A DNA stretch of 33,562 nt, taken from Bacteroidota bacterium (GTDB lineage: Bacteria; Bacteroidota; Bacteroidia; Bacteroidales; Prolixibacteraceae). Shown one piece after another: positions 600 through 7,821 of this stretch. Position numbers and translations under genes: made by a program. Where the stretch lies: positions 1 to 33,562 of the forward strand of contig JAUXUF010000251.1 in the NCBI GenBank assembly GCA_030684645.1, read 5' to 3'. The notes below the pieces were generated by a model that worked only from the letters and a program-made list of their open reading frames with translations, was not told where the DNA came from and did not search any database. Within the stretch, counting starts at the first letter, position 1. Each line of letters begins with the position of its first letter.

Positions 600-2225
600 T
601 TAAAAATCCAATTTATCCAGTGGGTTTTGTATCTGATCGAAACCTTTAGTTGTGATGTGGGTATAAATTTCGGTGGTTTTGCTGCTTTCGTGTCCCATCA
701 GGCTTTGTATGTAACGCAAATCGGTACCGTTTTCCAGTAAATGGGTTGCAAAACTGTGCCGTAATGTATGGGTCGAAACTTTCTTTTTTATACCGGCTTT
801 GGCATAAGCGTCTTTTACAGTGGTTTGTACGCTGCTTACCGAATACTGCCGACCCTTTGCGCCCTCAAAAAGCCATTCTTTTGGCTTGTATTCAATAAAA
901 TATTGTCGCAAAACCGGCAACACTTTTTTCGATAACGATGTATATCTGTCTTTTCGGCCTTTTGCCTGTTGCACAAATACTTTCATTCTTTCGCTGTCAA
1001 TATCTTTAATTTTTAAGTTAACAACTTCGCTCAGGCGTAACCCGGCCGAGTATATTAATAATACTATTGCCTTGTGTTTGATATTGTCGATTTGTCGTAT
1101 TACCGACACAATTTCCTGCTCGCTCAGTACTTCGGGCAAGGTTTTTTCCTTTCGTGGCCGCTCAACCAGATATATTTTTCGCTGTCCGCCCAAAACCCGC
1201 TCGTAGTAAAATTTAATTGAATTAATAGATTGGTTTTGATACGATGTCGATATTTTCCGTTCGATTACAAGATAACGCATAAAGGCAATAATCATTTTCT
1301 CATCAATGTTGTTGATGTCATATTTATGGTAATAGTTTATGAACTCTTCAAATAGGCCTTTGTACGATTTTAACGTGCTTTCACTGTATCTGAGTTCTTT
1401 CAGTTTGAGGATATACTCTTCGGGGCAATGTCGGTAATTTGCAACATTATAAGCAGTAATCCTCGGAGATTTATCATTGGTTTTGATCTCTTCTTCATAC
1501 CGGACTTCTATTTTTTGAGCCTTTGCCAATACTGTTATTTCATTTAAAAACTTTTCAGAAAAAGGGACTGTCCACCATTTATTGACTGCGTCCCAGGTAT
1601 GAAAAGGCATTTTTTTTAGCAAATAGCTCAATTCCTTGTTGAAACCAAAAATCAATTTTAACCTTCTGCTATTTGTTTTAATTATTAAAAGCTCATTGTT
1701 CTTTATCGTTTTTTGTTCATCAGCGCTTGTTTTTATTTCATACTCGTCATGAATAATTAGTTCGCTAATTCTGTCCTTAAAATAGTCGTTTATTAAATCC
1801 AGATTGCCCGGGTAATTAGGCACTATCCAACAATACTGTTTAGCATCCCACCTGCTGTACCGCAATGAGACGATAAAATGCGTGTCGAGGGCGTTTTTGG
1901 GAAGTTTCAATATGATATTCCTACCTAAAACCTGCACCGAAACGCCCTTTACCGGTTGTGCCTTGTTGGAACATTCGGCATTTGTGAAATTAACAATGGG
2001 TTCAACCGTTTTTACATCGCTAACTTTTTGTGGGTATTCGATTTGGGGGAACAGTGTTTTTAACAGGTCAAATTCCTTTTTGGTATAAGGTATATGCCAG
2101 GCGTTCATTGTTCTGCTCCATTTTGCGCCCGGAATCTTTTTAATAAGTTGTGCAATTTCCTGATTATAAGGAAAATCAATTTTGATGCGTGATTCTCCTT
2201 TATGGGTGATTTTTGTTGCCCGCAT
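600..2225 (-). CDS. Tyrosine recombinase with three N-terminal HARP-like repeats
   Basis: A 541-residue site-specific recombinase. The C-terminal catalytic domain carries the full tyrosine-recombinase set: R397 in AGLRLSEVV, Lys in AKGRKDRYTS, the HTLRH box, His in LMGHESS, and the nucleophile Y521 in TEIYTH. Before it is a SAM-like core-binding domain (about 280-370: YILKLKELRYSESTLKSY…). The first 260 residues are unusual for the family. They hold three related units ending in W-x(5-7)-W-x-x-P: KWSRTMNAWHIPY near 36, RWDAKQYCWIVPN near 125 and TWDAVNKWWTVPF near 208. These resemble the HARP motif of SMARCAL1-type proteins and may help bind structured DNA (inference). I start at MRATKI because the upstream in-frame residues lie in a different sequence context and overlap the recombinase fragment. 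The direct repeats and the fragment suggest an active integration locus. Confidence 0.88.
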   Translation of the reverse strand: MRATKITHKGESRIKIDFPYNQEIAQLIKKIPGAKWSRTMNAWHIPYTKKEFDLLKTLFPQIEYPQKVSDVKTVEPIVNFTNAECSNKAQPVKGVSVQVLGRNIILKLPKNALDTHFIVSLRYSRWDAKQYCWIVPNYPGNLDLINDYFKDRISELIIHDEYEIKTSADEQKTIKNNELLIIKTNSRRLKLIFGFNKELSYLLKKMPFHTWDAVNKWWTVPFSEKFLNEITVLAKAQKIEVRYEEEIKTNDKSPRITAYNVANYRHCPEEYILKLKELRYSESTLKSYKGLFEEFINYYHKYDINNIDEKMIIAFMRYLVIERKISTSYQNQSINSIKFYYERVLGGQRKIYLVERPRKEKTLPEVLSEQEIVSVIRQIDNIKHKAIVLLIYSAGLRLSEVVNLKIKDIDSERMKVFVQQAKGRKDRYTSLSKKVLPVLRQYFIEYKPKEWLFEGAKGRQYSVSSVQTTVKDAYAKAGIKKKVSTHTLRHSFATHLLENGTDLRYIQSLMGHESSKTTEIYTHITTKGFDQIQNPLDKLDF

Positions 2226-2233
2226 AAGATAAA

Positions 2234-2246
2234 AGTTGTGTATATA
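2234..2246 (+). repeat. Second copy of 13-bp direct repeat AGTTGTGTATATA
   Basis: Identical to 425-437 and in the same orientation. It sits 9 bp upstream of the recombinase start codon, where an attI-like site would be expected. Unlike the copy at 425-437 it has no complementary left arm. The two copies bracket a unit of about 1.8 kb containing only the recombinase gene. Confidence 0.55.
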
Positions 2247-2248
2247 CC

Positions 2249-2413
2249 TTAAAAATAAGAAATATCTGCAATTGGAAACCGAAAGCAAGCACGAAAAATC
2301 TGGCTCCAACGGGTACCAAAGCTTTTGGCTTTGCTCTTCAATTCTTCATCAAATCCAAAGAATAGCCCAATCTGGTCATTTCCGTTGTGAAATAACTTTC
2401 GAAGTTGTACCAT
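2249..2413 (-). pseudogene. 5' fragment of a second HARP-repeat tyrosine recombinase
   Basis: A 54-codon ORF starting with ATG at 2413. Aligned without gaps to the intact recombinase, it shares F18, E23, K30, G33, W36-S37 and A42, plus an offset H-x-G. The residues (LFFGFDEELKSKAK, then GTRWSQ) also match the third repeat unit of the intact protein (LIFGFNKELSYLLKK). Similarity ends near residue 45, and the frame stops at 2249, only 23 bp before the intact gene starts. The catalytic part is missing. I read it as the surviving 5' end of an older recombinase gene whose body was lost or replaced. Translation from it might still occur. Confidence 0.6.
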
Positions 2414-2632: not shown

Positions 2633-3718
2633 TTATTCCTTATCCATGATCTCAGTCTGTAATCTTACCGAATCTTCGTGGATGTGTTGGAATAACAGCT
2701 GAACGAGATTCCGATCCAGGTTCAGGCTTTCGCCCAGTTTCATGCGTTTTTCCATCAGTTCGGCAAAACGGCCAACCTGAAACGCGGTGACGTTGTTTTC
2801 TTTTTTATACTGACCAATTTGTCTCACAATTTCCATTCGCGACGACAAAGTTTCGAGCAATTCCGTGTCGATGGCATCAATGCGGTTACGAAGTAATTCG
2901 AGCTGATTTTCAAACAGTTTGTTGTCGATCCTAACATTCCGGATAATCAACCGGTCGAGTAATTTGGCCAGGTCAGCCGGAGTAAGTTGCTGTTCCTTGT
3001 CGCTCAATGCACACGACGGATCGCGGTGCGATTCGATCATCAGCCCTTCCATGCCCATATCAAACGCTTTCTGCGAAATATCGTACAAATACTCACGTTT
3101 CCCGCCAATGTGACTTGGATCGCAGATAATGGGCAGATTGGGCATCAAACGGCGCAATTCGATCACCGTTTTCCAGTTGGGGTAATTGCGGTACTCGGTT
3201 TCGCGAAAAGGCGTAAAACCTCGATGAATGGCCACCATATTTTTTATTCCGGCCTGGCTGAGGCGCTCAAAAGCCCCAACCCAAAGTTGTACATCGGGAT
3301 TGACGGGATTTTTCACCATCACCACAGCATCGGTTCCTTTCACCACGTCGGCAATTTCCTGCACCACAAAAGGACTGGCCGTTGAACGGGCTCCGATCCA
3401 CAGCACATCTACACCTGCTTCCAGCGCTTCTTCGGTATGTTGGGCGTTTGCCACTTCGGTGCCTACCGGCATTCCGGTTTCTTCGCGAACCATTTGCAGC
3501 CATTTTAAACCGATGCTTCCTATACCTTCGAAACTTCCGGGACGGGTGCGTGGTTTCCAAATACCACCGCGATAAACGAATACGCGGTGATCTCTGGCAA
3601 GCATCCGGGCAGTTTCCATGGTTTGTTCCTCGGTTTCGAGGCTACACGGACCGGCGATAATAAGCGGGTTGTTCAGTTGTGGCAACCAGTGCTTAATCGG
3701 GTTAATTTCTAATTCCAT
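2633..3718 (-). CDS. Bifunctional DAHP synthase / chorismate mutase (type II)
   Basis: A 361-residue fusion enzyme. Residues 1 to about 260 form a KDO8P/DAHP-synthase barrel that condenses phosphoenolpyruvate and erythrose 4-phosphate into DAHP, the first shikimate-pathway step. Visible signatures are IAGPCSLE, YRGGIWKPRTRPGSF, VKNPVNPDVQLW, IHRGF and CDPSHIGGKREYL. Residues about 270-355 form an AroQ-type all-helical chorismate mutase (LRNRIDAIDTELLETLSSRM…, IGQYKKENNV). The fusion is characteristic of Bacteroidota and lets the mutase domain sense prephenate and feed back on the synthase (family knowledge). It starts 2 bp after tyrA ends, so the two are surely co-transcribed and lie under the upstream attenuator. 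No prephenate dehydratase gene is present in this operon. Confidence 0.93.
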   Translation of the reverse strand: MELEINPIKHWLPQLNNPLIIAGPCSLETEEQTMETARMLARDHRVFVYRGGIWKPRTRPGSFEGIGSIGLKWLQMVREETGMPVGTEVANAQHTEEALEAGVDVLWIGARSTASPFVVQEIADVVKGTDAVVMVKNPVNPDVQLWVGAFERLSQAGIKNMVAIHRGFTPFRETEYRNYPNWKTVIELRRLMPNLPIICDPSHIGGKREYLYDISQKAFDMGMEGLMIESHRDPSCALSDKEQQLTPADLAKLLDRLIIRNVRIDNKLFENQLELLRNRIDAIDTELLETLSSRMEIVRQIGQYKKENNVTAFQVGRFAELMEKRMKLGESLNLDRNLVQLLFQHIHEDSVRLQTEIMDKE

Positions 3719-3720
3719 GA

Positions 3721-4614
3721 CTATTTGGTATAAAGTTTAACTATTGTCTTTTCATTTTTTACGAGCGAATCACCTTGTCCGTTCAGAATTCCTCGAATAC
3801 GGTTGGCATTTTTCATCAGCGCCATCATTTGTTCCGGATCAGATTCGATGCTTTTTTTAAATGCTTTCAGGTGTTTGATATATACTTCCAGCGATTCAAC
3901 AACGTATTCCTTGTTTTGTTGAAAAATTGGTCCCCACATTTCAGGAGAACTCTTGGCCAGTCGGACGGTAGAATTGAATCCACCGCTTGCCAGATCGAAA
4001 ATAATTTCGCGGTCTTCCTTGTCGAGAACCGCATTGGCCAAGGCAAAAGCTGCGGCATGCGGAAGGTGCGAAATAAATGCTGTACTGTGATCCTGATCAT
4101 CTGCAGTCATGTAAGCGATATCCATTCCCAGCGCCTGGAAAACTTTTTCGGCAAAAGCCAAATGTTGTGGTCCAATTTTTTCCTGATCGCAAATGATGTT
4201 GATCTTGCCTTCGAAAAGTCCTTCGAGCGCGGCTGACGGACCTGAATTTTCAGTACCCGCCATCGGGTGGGCCGGAATATAATTCCTGCGTTTCGGATGG
4301 TTTTCAACGGCTTCGGAAATCGCTTTCTTGGTCGATCCCACGTCAATTACTGTGGTTTGGGCAGAAATCAGGTCAAGAACCTGGGTTAGGGTGTTCAAAA
4401 CCTTATCAACCGGAATGGCAATAATCACCATATCGGCTTTCGAAACGGCATTTTCCAGCGTTTCAATCCGGTCGATAATTCCTAACCGAAGCGCTTCCAC
4501 GGCATTTTCCTGACTTGAATCGACGCCTGTAATTTCAGCAGCAAATCCGGCCTTCCGCAGGTCTTTTGCCATCGATCCGCCAATAAGTCCCAACCCAATA
4601 ACTGTAAGTTTCAT
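3721..4614 (-). CDS. tyrA: Prephenate dehydrogenase
   Basis: A 297-residue NAD(P)-dependent enzyme that oxidatively decarboxylates prephenate to 4-hydroxyphenylpyruvate for tyrosine synthesis. The Rossmann motif GLGLIGGS is at the very N terminus. Further TyrA hallmarks follow: VIIAIPVD, DVGSTKK, HPMAGTE (catalytic His region), FISHLPHAAAFALA and the helical dimer domain (FNSTVRLAKSSPEMW). I choose MKLTVIG as the start. The frame extends seven codons further to 4635 (MKINKLD), but family members begin directly at the Rossmann strand. It is first gene after the aromatic leader/attenuator, with a leader of about 175 bases, and is followed 2 bp later by the DAHP synthase/chorismate mutase fusion. 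Confidence 0.93.
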   Translation of the reverse strand: MKLTVIGLGLIGGSMAKDLRKAGFAAEITGVDSSQENAVEALRLGIIDRIETLENAVSKADMVIIAIPVDKVLNTLTQVLDLISAQTTVIDVGSTKKAISEAVENHPKRRNYIPAHPMAGTENSGPSAALEGLFEGKINIICDQEKIGPQHLAFAEKVFQALGMDIAYMTADDQDHSTAFISHLPHAAAFALANAVLDKEDREIIFDLASGGFNSTVRLAKSSPEMWGPIFQQNKEYVVESLEVYIKHLKAFKKSIESDPEQMMALMKNANRIRGILNGQGDSLVKNEKTIVKLYTK

Positions 4615-4683
4615 ATCTAATTTGTTTATTTTCATTTCGTACCACTTGACCCAAACGGTTCATGCAATTGCAAATCATTGCCT

Positions 4684-4720
4684 AAGCTTTCCCCCAGTTG
4701 GGGGAACGGGAAGGGGGCTT
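4684..4720. repeat. Nested G/C-tract palindrome in the tyrA leader
   Basis: TTCCCCC (4689-4695) and GGGGGAA (4700-4706) form a perfect 7-bp hairpin with a 4-base loop. An outer AAGC/GCTT pair (4684-4687 and 4717-4720) encloses it together with a second G-run. It lies between the attenuator and tyrA. It looks like an inserted repetitive element, and it could also hinder read-through or translation of tyrA (inference). Confidence 0.5.
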
Positions 4721-4726
4721 TAAAAT

Positions 4727-4760
4727 AAAAAAAGGGCCCCGTTATGCACGGGACCCTTTT
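4727..4760 (-). terminator. Attenuator terminator of the tyrA operon
   Basis: On the minus strand AAAAGGGTCCCGT (4760-4748) pairs with ACGGGGCCCTTTT (4742-4730): a 13-bp stem with one G-T wobble and a 5-base loop, ending in a run of seven T. It lies 30 bp after the leader-peptide stop and over 100 bp before tyrA, so it terminates prematurely rather than at the end of an operon. Its first arm (GGTCCCG, 4755-4749) can instead pair with CGGGATC (4805-4799) at leader codons 19-21, giving the antiterminator. Confidence 0.88.
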
Positions 4761-4789
4761 GTAAAATATCTTTTTGTAACAACAAGATA

Positions 4790-4861
4790 TTACCAGCCGA
4801 TCCCGATAGGAGAACAGAAGTAATAAAACCAATAAAAATTGTTGTTACCTGTACGTTTCAT
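4790..4861 (-). CDS. Aromatic leader peptide controlling the tyrA operon
   Basis: A 23-codon ORF beginning MKRTGNNN, followed by FYWFYYF at codons 9-15 and CSPIGIGW, then TAA. Eight of its 23 residues are Phe, Tyr or Trp, far beyond chance, and it sits between a perfect -7 box and an intrinsic terminator. In the classical model, ribosome stalling at codons 9-15 when charged aromatic tRNAs are scarce leaves codons 19-21 (CGGGATC) free to capture the terminator arm, and tyrA is transcribed. Translation to the stop covers that segment and the terminator forms. An additional 10-bp complementarity (GTAACAACAA at codons 5-8 with TTGTTGTTAC at 4785-4776) could form the pause hairpin. The FYWFYYF mix suggests response to all three aromatic amino acids. 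Confidence 0.87.
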   Translation of the reverse strand: MKRTGNNNFYWFYYFCSPIGIGW

Positions 4862-4880
4862 GTTACTTTCAATTTGGAAG

Positions 4881-4888
4881 CAAATATA
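4881..4888 (-). promoter_or_regulatory. Promoter -7 box (TATATTTG) of the aromatic leader
   Basis: A perfect match to the Bacteroidota -7 consensus TAnnTTTG on the minus strand. It lies 19 bp before the leader-peptide ATG and 21 bp past the end of the peptidase gene. No clear -33 TTTG is seen at the usual spacing. Confidence 0.6.
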
Positions 4889-4909: not shown

Positions 4910-7705
4910 TTACTGTATCAGAATTTTCCGGGTAACTAGCTGGCCGTTTTCCGGTTCAACCGTAAATAAATACAGCCCGGGCCTGAAACTGCTTACATCA
5001 ATGGCCGTCTGAAAGGCGCTGGAACTAACAGGAAAGGTCCGGCTGTAAACCGGTATTCCGGAGGAATTATAGGCTTTCAGCATCAATTTATGAATATTCT
5101 TTTGCGCCTGAATCTGCAAAGTTAACTCATTGGTTGCCGGATTCGGGGAAAAATTAACCTCTCCGGATGACAAAAGTATCGGATTGACCGCAGTTCCAAT
5201 ATCCTGAATGTTCAAATTATCAATGATCCAGCCCCAACCGTTCGAATATGGATCGGAAAAAAGGCGAAACCTGACCATAATCGTATCTCCGGCGCTGAAA
5301 TTACCATTCGCCAACATATCAATTTCACGTTTCACAAACAAATCTTTTGTTGGCACAGATGTACTGTTATTACCTGAAATTCCTTTGTTAAACAAATTAG
5401 CCCATGTTGACTTCGCACCACTATCGTATCCATCAATCACAGGTTTCCAGGTTGTTCCATTATCTGTCGAACCTTCAACAATCACGTAATCGTAGAAGTT
5501 TTCGTCGCCAAATTTAGTTCCCGGATCGCCTGGTTCCACCAATACGATTTCATCGAAACTCATTTTTCCACCGGCCTTCAGGACAATTGGGTACCTGAGC
5601 ATGGCGCTGAAATTAAAGTTCGTATTGTCGGTATCCGGACTTAGGTATGGATGGGCAGAATTTAAGGCTGGATTATCGAACCCGGTAGCAGTGGAAACAT
5701 TAAAATCAGTGCCAATAAAATCGGTATTTACGGTATTGAAATCAGTAACATATTTATCGACGGGATTTTCAATTCCTTCGATTTTAATGCTGAAGTTTCC
5801 GGAAAGCGGCAAATAGCCGGTGTTACTTTGCGACGAAATATCAGTGGCAACAAACCGGTAATGAACCAGATCACCATTTTTGACAGAGCTGGAAGAAAGG
5901 ACCAAATCAGCCGAATAATAATTACCGGAGTCATTTTTCAGGATTAAATCATGATTTGTTCCTTCATTTATAAAATATTCCAGCTTTACTGATTTAACAC
6001 CCAGGTTGTCGGTTGCCCGAACATTCATTTTTGTGGTTAGATTTGTGGTTAAAAGGTATTTGATCGGTTTATGGATCAATACAGGGGCTTCCTTGTCAAG
6101 CTGAATCTTAAAAGGGAAATAGCCGGTTAGCGGCAAACGGCCTATATTACTTTGCGACGATATATCAGTGGCAATAATCCTGTAACTGACCTCATCTCCG
6201 TCTTTTACGGTTCCCTCCGGAAATGTCAGATTTACAGAATATTGATCATTTGAATCGTTATTCAGTGTCAAATCCGTTTTCGGTCCACCGTTTACAAAAT
6301 ATTCCAGTTTAACCGACTTAATTCCAATGTTGTCAGTTGCCACCACGTCAATTTTCGCCGAAAGCTTATCGGTTAACATCAATTTCACAGGTTCGTGTTT
6401 CAATACCGGAGGTGTATTGTCAATTCCAATGTTAAAGCTCAGATATTGGGCTGGTGAGCCGGAAGGGAAAACATACCTTCGGTTTTTCACATCGGTGGCC
6501 GAAAAGAAATAGCGAACTTCTCCATTTGAAGTTTGATTCAACTGGGCGTTAAAAACAGTATTTACATTCGTTGCTGCTAACCGAACAGAATCTCTTCTAA
6601 TAAACGGAGTCCTTGAATAAACCAAAAATAATTTGGTTGTATCCAGGCCATAATCACTAATTAGCTGAGCATCAAAATTGATTGGTGATGAAACATACTC
6701 AATGTCTTTTATGGATTTATGCCTGATGGATATATTTTTCCAGCCAATATCATACAGCATGGCAAGCGCATCGGGCCCGGGATCATGAATGGCTTCACCC
6801 ATATCGGCATAGGGCGTCATCAGCGAATTCACATCACTCACCGGATACGTCGATTCATCAAGATGGTAAATGCTCGAACCAGTGTCCCAACTGGTTGGTG
6901 CGAAAAGCCTTGGTATTTGACCGTCAACCATTCTGGAGTTAAATTCCAACCATCCTGAAGTTAGATTCTGATTGAGCAAAGTAGATGGATTCGTAAAAAG
7001 CTTGGTATTAACTAATTTTTCACCTTTCTTGTTTACCACAAACAAATCGAATGCAGCAGGCAAATAATCAGCTCCTGAAGAGTATCCTCCTCTGCCGGAA
7101 GCGGAATAAAAATTACCGATGAAACCTAATCCATGAGCCAATTCGTGCAAAACAGTTGAAACAAAATCGTATTGATTGAACGGGGTTTTTCCATCGGTGC
7201 CAAAATACCAGTTCGCAAAATCTTTGTTGAACGATGCATCAATTTCGTAATCGGTTGGAGAATTGACCTGCCCGCCCAACATCTTTTCAACTAATGCTAC
7301 AGAGTAATAGCAGTTCCAAACCTCTGTAGAATTAAAATTCTTAAAATAATCGGTTGAGCCAGTGCTTCCCAAAACGCCTTTTCCCAAACTCGTCCACACC
7401 GCCCTTACCCGAATGGGTACCGGAGAGTAAATCAGGCTTTTCCAAATATCAACGGCATACTGAAATGCCTGCTGAGCTTCAGGAGGAAACCCGAAATAAG
7501 TGACTTCGATGGTGGTTGTTTGGGTTGAAGCCGACTTTAAATGCTCATAAAATTCTACTGGCGGTTTAACAAATGAAGGATGAGGTACGTTTGAACCATA
7601 ACAAACCGGTGGCGGTATCTTAATTCCTTTCTTCTTCCATGATTCCTGTCCATAACTCAACCCTGCTGTTATCAGGAATAAAAACAAACCCAGTTTTACC
7701 TTCAT
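4910..7705 (-). CDS. Secreted zincin-type peptidase with T9SS sorting domain
   Basis: A 931-residue exported protein. It has a signal peptide (MKVKLGLFLFLITAGLSYGQ), then a metallopeptidase-like region (about 45-310) with HELAHGLGFIGNF. This is HExxH, but the metzincin third ligand (H or D) is replaced by G, so activity needs proof. Two Ig-like repeats of 108 residues follow (VKLEYFVNGGP… and VKLEYFINEGT…, both with YR(I/F)(I/V)ATDISSQSN). The repeats are still similar in DNA, for example TTACTTTGCGACGA at 5823 and 6147. Next comes a jelly-roll-like region ending GWGWIIDNLNIQ, and then a type A sorting domain (FSPNPATNELTLQIQ … FRPGLYLFTVE … RKILIQ) that directs export by T9SS. The start at 7705 is chosen for the signal peptide; the frame runs nine codons further upstream. 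It is transcribed toward the aromatic operon, with only 48 bp between its stop codon and the leader ATG. Confidence 0.85.
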   Translation of the reverse strand: MKVKLGLFLFLITAGLSYGQESWKKKGIKIPPPVCYGSNVPHPSFVKPPVEFYEHLKSASTQTTTIEVTYFGFPPEAQQAFQYAVDIWKSLIYSPVPIRVRAVWTSLGKGVLGSTGSTDYFKNFNSTEVWNCYYSVALVEKMLGGQVNSPTDYEIDASFNKDFANWYFGTDGKTPFNQYDFVSTVLHELAHGLGFIGNFYSASGRGGYSSGADYLPAAFDLFVVNKKGEKLVNTKLFTNPSTLLNQNLTSGWLEFNSRMVDGQIPRLFAPTSWDTGSSIYHLDESTYPVSDVNSLMTPYADMGEAIHDPGPDALAMLYDIGWKNISIRHKSIKDIEYVSSPINFDAQLISDYGLDTTKLFLVYSRTPFIRRDSVRLAATNVNTVFNAQLNQTSNGEVRYFFSATDVKNRRYVFPSGSPAQYLSFNIGIDNTPPVLKHEPVKLMLTDKLSAKIDVVATDNIGIKSVKLEYFVNGGPKTDLTLNNDSNDQYSVNLTFPEGTVKDGDEVSYRIIATDISSQSNIGRLPLTGYFPFKIQLDKEAPVLIHKPIKYLLTTNLTTKMNVRATDNLGVKSVKLEYFINEGTNHDLILKNDSGNYYSADLVLSSSSVKNGDLVHYRFVATDISSQSNTGYLPLSGNFSIKIEGIENPVDKYVTDFNTVNTDFIGTDFNVSTATGFDNPALNSAHPYLSPDTDNTNFNFSAMLRYPIVLKAGGKMSFDEIVLVEPGDPGTKFGDENFYDYVIVEGSTDNGTTWKPVIDGYDSGAKSTWANLFNKGISGNNSTSVPTKDLFVKREIDMLANGNFSAGDTIMVRFRLFSDPYSNGWGWIIDNLNIQDIGTAVNPILLSSGEVNFSPNPATNELTLQIQAQKNIHKLMLKAYNSSGIPVYSRTFPVSSSAFQTAIDVSSFRPGLYLFTVEPENGQLVTRKILIQ

Positions 7706-7821
7706 TTTACTTTCAGTTATAGTTCTGCCCAATGTACTTCAACACAAAAAATCACACTGCAAAAAAAGATCCAAAAGATTAAGCGTCTGTCTTAAGCTCT
7801 ATTTTATCGGTCTTCTGAATC

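Follow-up and report, generated by a model that had tools for sequence, protein, structure and literature searches.

Our analyses concern a window of 33,562 nucleotides, whose minus strand carries a short regulatory element (4888 to 4728) situated between the gene end of an ORF with a C-terminal secretion-sorting domain (4910-7732) and the gene tyrA. The minus-strand leader begins just past that gene end, and at its head lies the box TATATTTG (4881..4888), which was read in the sequence and conforms to TAnnTTTG, the motif that we take to be the -7 motif of Bacteroidota promoters. No -33 TTG was seen by eye in the window, and the promoter, of which only the -7 half is good, is thus less certain than the rest of the element. 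The box is followed by a leader peptide ORF, MKRTGNNNFYWFYYFCSPIGIGW, of 23 codons and a TAA (4790..4861, minus strand; ATG at 4861, stop at 4792-4790), whose codons 9-15 (4817..4837) read F Y W F Y Y F, all seven of them (F9-F15) being aromatic. The ORF is too short for routine gene calling; both it and the box had been described in an earlier note on this DNA, made from the letters alone, and both are present as described.

The remainder of the element consists of segments, all on the minus strand, that can pair in alternative ways. Region A (codons 5-8; GGTAACAACAA, 4839..4849) forms the 5' arm of a candidate protector helix, the 3' arm of which, region A' (TTGTTGTTAC, 4776..4785), overlaps the inner hairpin of the antiterminator. 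Region 2 (CGGGATC, codons 19-21, 4799..4805) is the 5' arm of the antiterminator, and region 3 (GGGTCCCG, 4749..4756) is the 5' arm of the terminator and contains GGTCCCG (4755-4749), the 3' arm of the antiterminator; between CGGGATC (4805-4799) and GGTCCCG 7 bp are possible, one of them G-U, as the earlier note had proposed. The additional hairpin that it had listed, between AATATCTT (4791-4784) and AAGATATT (4772-4765), is likewise present and, judging from the folds, most plausibly represents the antiterminator's inner part; in prefix folds of the window this inner hairpin (4761..4793) pairs GUAAUAUCUU with AAGAUAUUUUAC, two bases being bulged. The element ends in an intrinsic terminator (4728..4760) with a 13-bp stem and a T7 run (4734-4728), the first Ts of which are used by the last four stem pairs. 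The 162-nt RNA folds with -45.4 kcal/mol compared with a mean of -29.3 for shuffled sequences (z -4.7), and 0 of 200 shuffles were as good.

The gene downstream of the terminator is tyrA (3721..4635, minus strand), encoding prephenate dehydrogenase (Pfam PDH_N and PDH_C). Its start is likely the ATG at 4614 (MKLTV), because this is the sole ATG among the first codons in the relatives compared, and the distance from the terminator to this ATG is 113 nt. The next gene (2633..3718, minus strand) encodes DAHP synthase fused to chorismate mutase (Pfam DAHP_synth_1 and CM_2), which confirms the gene order given earlier; it adjoins tyrA on the 3' side in 30/30 loci tested, the window among them, and the two genes are presumably co-transcribed as one operon. 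Part of the gap between the terminator and tyrA is occupied by a dispersed repeat of ~40 bp, AAGCCCCCTTCCCGTTCCCCCAACTGGGGGAAAGCTT (4680-4721, minus strand), for which 21 further matches are found in the same genome; a similar copy lies directly past the terminator in one related locus (L011), and in three others (L017, L023, and L026) the repeat seems to begin there. A phage-integrase-family recombinase (569-aa ORF, 600-2309, minus strand) is located just downstream of the aromatic genes.

The distribution of this leader was examined within the family Prolixibacteraceae, where tyrA was located in 127 of 140 genomes and 122 loci (30 + 92) were examined, the five left out (viz. those of G007, G048, G049, G084, and G119) being fragments or weak matches only. 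An aromatic leader, that is, an ORF whose predicted translation holds a run of pathway-product residues, precedes tyrA in all of the 122 loci, and in 118 of them both the leader and an intrinsic terminator between it and the first gene were found by script. The remaining four are a locus in which the contig end cuts the leader, the aromatic run and the terminator being visible by eye (L011), one in which both parts are present by eye (L122), one in which the leader is present and the terminator was missed by the script (L148; at this place the leader model matches its genome, G028, with E 5.7e-15), and one with a strongly diverged leader, MKPFFYRSSYYYVPYSGAA, and a terminator seen by eye (L085). 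The longest aromatic run comprises at least 4 residues in 118/118 scripted leaders, a run of 4 being one of the two rules by which the script admitted a leader, and about eight aromatic residues are present per leader. In 110/118 scripted leaders a TAnnTTTG box occurs no more than 60 nt ahead of the leader ATG, compared with 4% of shuffled upstream sequences. The mixture of F, Y, and W drifts among genera, with residues exchanging for one another (e.g. NNSFFYWFYYFCS, NNNYFYFYFYYGS, and NTFYFWFGYLGLR). The earlier note had held that Phe, Tyr, and Trp are sensed jointly; codons for both Phe and Tyr are indeed found in 118/118 scripted leaders, whereas the case for Trp is weaker than claimed, since its codons are present in 81/118, absent from 37, and found in just 6/34 leaders of one genus (g5). 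In the genome from which the window derives, the covariance model of the leader (R1) has one match, and upstream of pheA (L247) no such leader was found by script or seen by eye.

The pairings of the leader were assessed in an alignment of 117 distinct family leaders, in which the pairs tested were chosen from the structure of the window and the counts of shuffles, which ignore relatedness, are not probabilities. The helix between codons 19-21 and GGTCCCG is paired in 97.7% of cells, with changes on both sides at 5/7 pairs, two of these five resting on a single sequence each; its outer pair occurs as C-G (76), G-C (24), and A-U (2), and its third pair as G-C (63), G-U (40), and A-U (12). The inner hairpin is paired in 79.6% of cells and the whole antiterminator, inner hairpin included, in 87.1%, compared with 36-55% for slid controls. 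In covariation score, in paired cells, and in both-side cells it exceeds all 500 shuffles; in how many pairs change on both sides (140/500 shuffles as high) and in further pair types (80/500) it is not outstanding. For the protector A:A' 88.9% of cells are paired over the seven pairs counted, with both-side changes at 5/7, and for the terminator 94.7% over the nine pairs counted, with both-side changes at 6/9; taken together, protector and terminator are paired in 92.2% of cells (slid controls 36-60%) and show both-side changes at 11/16 pairs, a number reached by 17/500 shuffles.

Because the first arm of the terminator is common to both alternatives, three segments change together, viz. GGAGATC with GGTCTCC in one genus (g2), CGGAATC with GGTTCCG in three others (g3, g4, and g19), and ACCGGGACC with GGTCCCGGT in a fifth (g23). 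The family loci contain an antiterminator that excludes the terminator and is kept by compensatory change. Scored for pairing, tails and their own terminator arms reach 16.2, compared with 14.4 for arms swapped across genera and 11.1 for shuffled tails, and own arms exceed the mean of their own swaps in 98/118 leaders (20/118 do not). In one genus of 3 genomes (g8; L136, L156, and L158) the ORF stops ahead of region 2 and GGGATC is retained past the stop codon; region 2 lies outside the ORF there and is kept nevertheless, and it is thus as RNA that it is conserved in this genus. The presence of the leader in 122/122 family loci and the covariation of its pairings establish that it is not a chance feature. 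The earlier note had named, as one test of its reading, whether related genomes retain the aromatic run and compensating changes in the stems, and the family loci retain both.

The influence of ribosome position upon these structures was computed for the 118 leaders from equilibrium folds of the transcript truncated just after the first terminator arm, with the ribosome footprint, the size of which was taken from general knowledge, masked. The mean probability of the antiterminator is 0.54 without a ribosome, 0.60 with a ribosome at the start codon, 0.89 with a ribosome stalled on the aromatic codons, and 0.004 with a ribosome at the stop codon, which is the switch expected from the ribosome-stalling logic of the trp/phe type invoked in the earlier note. 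The stalled value exceeds that at the stop codon by more than 0.1 in 116/118 leaders, the exceptions being L078 and L157, and in four of the 118 the stalled probability does not exceed 0.5 (L078 0.25, L083 0.43, L095 0.38, and L157 0.02); in L078 the antiterminator probability exceeds 0.5 at the stop codon, and the pairing scored by the script there differs from that of its relatives. For the window the model gives antiterminator probabilities of 0.975 without a ribosome, 0.976 stalled, 0.0 at the stop codon, and 0.984 at the start codon, and prefix folds of the window show the same ribosome-dependent switch. The value of 0.975 indicates that in the window termination is not made the default state by the predicted protector, and without translation of the leader the model predicts readthrough and not termination. 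In this model the core switch is well supported and the protector of codons 5-8 appears to be unneeded for the window; the 10-bp pairing of these codons with 4785-4776 noted earlier is present and conserved.

Related leaders are also found beyond the family. In the counts that follow, order and class are the ranks of the genome collection used; for Prolixibacteraceae, NCBI gives the order Marinilabiliales and GTDB the order Bacteroidales. At a loose threshold (E up to 0.1) the R1 model has matches in 131/140 family genomes and in 119/295 genomes of the order, and at E <0.001 the matches listed include 25 places outside the family. Among 27 R1 loci that were read (L174-L200, one of them of the family), the leader is followed by a long ORF in 21, and these ORFs presumably encode, by their motifs, prephenate dehydratase, an aminotransferase, or DAHP synthase; adjoining Pfam matches confirm pheA beside the leader in five genomes (G256, G181, G244, G162, and G177). 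A search of the order with a codon pattern (seven aromatic codons, Trp third) matched 120/393 genomes and was set aside as too noisy, the reversed control having matched many too and the pattern demanding a Trp codon that many true leaders are without.

The region upstream of pheA, identified by PF00800 in 52 of 119 genomes of the order, was scanned in 50 loci, 38 of which carry an F/Y-rich leader and a terminator on the coding strand, compared with 2/50 on the opposite strand. The 12 misses include two Prolixibacteraceae loci (L245 and L247) whose leader sits at tyrA, one locus just 91 bp long (L274), and 5 in which a leader is similarly placed and no terminator was found. In other orders of the class (24 genomes with pheA; seven families) leader units are present in 18 of the 22 loci examined, viz. 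17/20 (opposite strand 0/20) and 1/2 (L310 yes, L297 no). No leader was found at pheA outside the class in the best-scoring 28 of 77 genomes with pheA, 15 of which belong to one family, and none was found in a same-strand control downstream of pheA (0/28). The earlier note had called for a comparison of such leaders across the phylum; the scope revealed by the present comparison is wider than this family, extending through the class with different genes leading the operon.

A finer script applied to 70 of these loci gave 67 leader units, not all checked by eye, in 56 loci. Pairing of the tail with its own terminator arm scores 18.7 in these units, compared with 13.0 for swapped and 10.7 for shuffled sequences, and 63/67 units lie above their own swap mean. 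Two units in series precede pheA in 11 of the 56 leader-bearing loci (viz. L239, L248, L251, L256, L259, L264, L265, L271, L282, L321, and L327), separated by 117-191 nt. An exact TAnnTTTG is found ahead of the first tandem unit in 6/11 and of the second in 0/11, as against 33/45 single units, and a single promoter thus probably serves both. Some weak tandem units (e.g. the first in L251 and L256 and the second in L321) may be false.

Two other tyrA loci were encountered. The 600 bases upstream of tyrA in Winogradskyella (L228) look by eye like the end of a coding gene. A 96% identical tyrA piece is filed under Candidatus Saccharibacteria (L229; LCPR01000022.1) and most likely represents a mis-binned Prolixibacteraceae contig.

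The element in the window is, with high confidence, a classical ribosome-mediated transcription attenuator of the tyrA and DAHP synthase/chorismate mutase genes. This reading is based on the anatomy of the locus, its conservation, the covariation of both mutually exclusive structures, and the dependence of the folding model on ribosome position, the last of these being computed only; the neighbouring aromatic genes match the codons of the leader, which also counts in its favour. For the window we infer promoter use, actual termination, co-transcription of the two genes, the response to starvation, and which tRNAs count. RNA polymerase would start at the -7 box and a ribosome would follow, translating the 23-codon leader. 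If charged tRNA-Phe or tRNA-Tyr (possibly also tRNA-Trp) is scarce, the ribosome would stall within codons 9-15, leaving codons 19-21 free to pair with the first arm of the terminator, aided by the hairpin just past the stop codon; the antiterminator so formed would block the terminator and allow tyrA and the DAHP synthase/chorismate mutase gene to be transcribed. When the aromatic tRNAs are charged, the ribosome would proceed to the stop codon and cover codons 19-21 together with the beginning of the hairpin, upon which the terminator would form and a transcript of ~145-150 nt would be released. The attenuator probably pools the signals of Phe and Tyr, and Trp is possibly a further signal.

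Attenuators of this kind are already known, and the essentials of the element, which is a real one, had been correctly interpreted. The leader attenuator of Escherichia coli pheA is described as regulated by charged tRNA-Phe (PMC11802643) and resembles the present case in having a leader peptide ahead of an aromatic gene; it differs from it in that the run here is a mixture of Phe, Tyr, and Trp, the genes are tyrA and that for DAHP synthase/chorismate mutase, and the host belongs to Bacteroidia. In Corynebacterium glutamicum, the aroR leader (Phe-Tyr-Phe) before aroF is described as acting by ribosome stalling upon Phe limitation, Tyr being without effect (PMC11802643). The likeness to this system, drawn from its description and not from sequence, lies in an aromatic leader before a DAHP synthase operon and in ribosome stalling; unlike the present leaders it belongs to Actinobacteria, and three aromatic residues are named in that description, whereas the family leaders have about eight. 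For the B. thetaiotaomicron operon pheA > hisHb > aroAIbeta-aroQ > tyrA a putative attenuator was tabulated in 2005 (Table 7) from a web database of predictions (PMC1173090). By its description, it concerns genes of the same pathway in the same phylum with a different operon order, and the main text of that paper mentions no leader peptide, the word "leader" occurring 0 times. Some 5' UTRs of B. thetaiotaomicron are reported to hold short ORFs reminiscent of leaders (PMC7366714), and for Flavobacterium psychrophilum strong clues were described for leader-peptide attenuation upstream of amino-acid biosynthesis operons (PMC9723704), which is like the present case in kind, the operons and leaders being unnamed in the text compared. 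Among the open-licence PMC papers searched, no account was found of a leader peptide from Bacteroidia in which aromatic codons are mixed, of its class-wide spread, or of its tandem form.

The behavior of aroR bears on the possibility that the same attenuator operates and only one amino acid matters in practice (e.g. Phe alone), the others being passengers. This possibility, which is nested within the preferred explanation and which we regard as rather unlikely, is favored by the Phe response of aroR and its indifference to Tyr (PMC11802643); the presence of Phe together with Tyr in every scripted family leader, and of Phe in 67/67 and Tyr in 66/67 leader units elsewhere in the class, argues against it, as does the exchange of Phe and Tyr at the same positions between genera. 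In a different explanation, stalling would be caused by the aromatic peptide within the exit tunnel in response to a ligand, in the manner of TnaC or Erm leaders, and an empty tRNA would play no part. Arrest peptides generally depend on exact residues, whereas here both the residues (F, Y, or W) and their order differ from genus to genus, and the conserved flanking blocks coincide with arms of RNA pairing; although the length of the aromatic tract and its conserved position speak for it, arrest by the nascent peptide is considered very improbable.

A similarly slight probability is assigned to an element without cis regulation, either a small-protein gene combined with a terminator that acts constitutively or a small RNA that ends at the terminator and acts in trans. 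The transcript expected from it, ~145 nt long, would carry a conserved short ORF, and action in trans has been reported for a trp leader peptide (PMC7298713). However, aromatic genes remain headed by leaders of this type even where a different gene comes first, and compensatory change keeps an antiterminator for which a plain terminator has no need.

A riboswitch or other known RNA was considered and rejected, as no match to Rfam 15 at gathering level was obtained in the window and 40 further loci (drawn from the 122 family and 70 class loci). The best sub-threshold match is to RF01859 (Phe_leader), with 25.2 bits against a gathering threshold of 55 (E 0.038), and the element is not a member of that family. 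On these comparisons the window attenuator appears as one of a broad set for which Rfam yields nothing at gathering level in the loci scanned. Bacteroidia likely possess one uncatalogued family of attenuators pooling Phe and Tyr (and Trp) at the heads of operons whose leading gene changes (viz. tyrA, pheA, aminotransferase, or DAHP synthase); in roughly one in five pheA loci with a leader there would be two in series, probably under a single promoter. Such a family would provide a Bacteroidia-wide case, supported by sequence, of attenuation with mixed aromatic codons, and it suggests that aromatic biosynthesis in many Bacteroidia may be set by tRNA charging. Two attenuators in series, if real, would sharpen or widen the response, and the mixed-codon leaders offer a means to test whether several tRNA signals are pooled and what two attenuators in series do.

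Bacteroid-trp (RF01692; gathering threshold 49 bits), a candidate cis-regulatory RNA of Bacteroidetes (PMC2864571), differs from the present leaders in its Trp codons, and at gathering level it has no match in the window or elsewhere in the genome from which the window derives. A search for RF01692 over 41 genomes matched 3, that genome not being among them. One match lies in a congener (G011; L201, ~1521-1660), where what reads as a Trp leader, MTTRLANTYWWWLLYNFQKS, is followed by a terminator-like hairpin.
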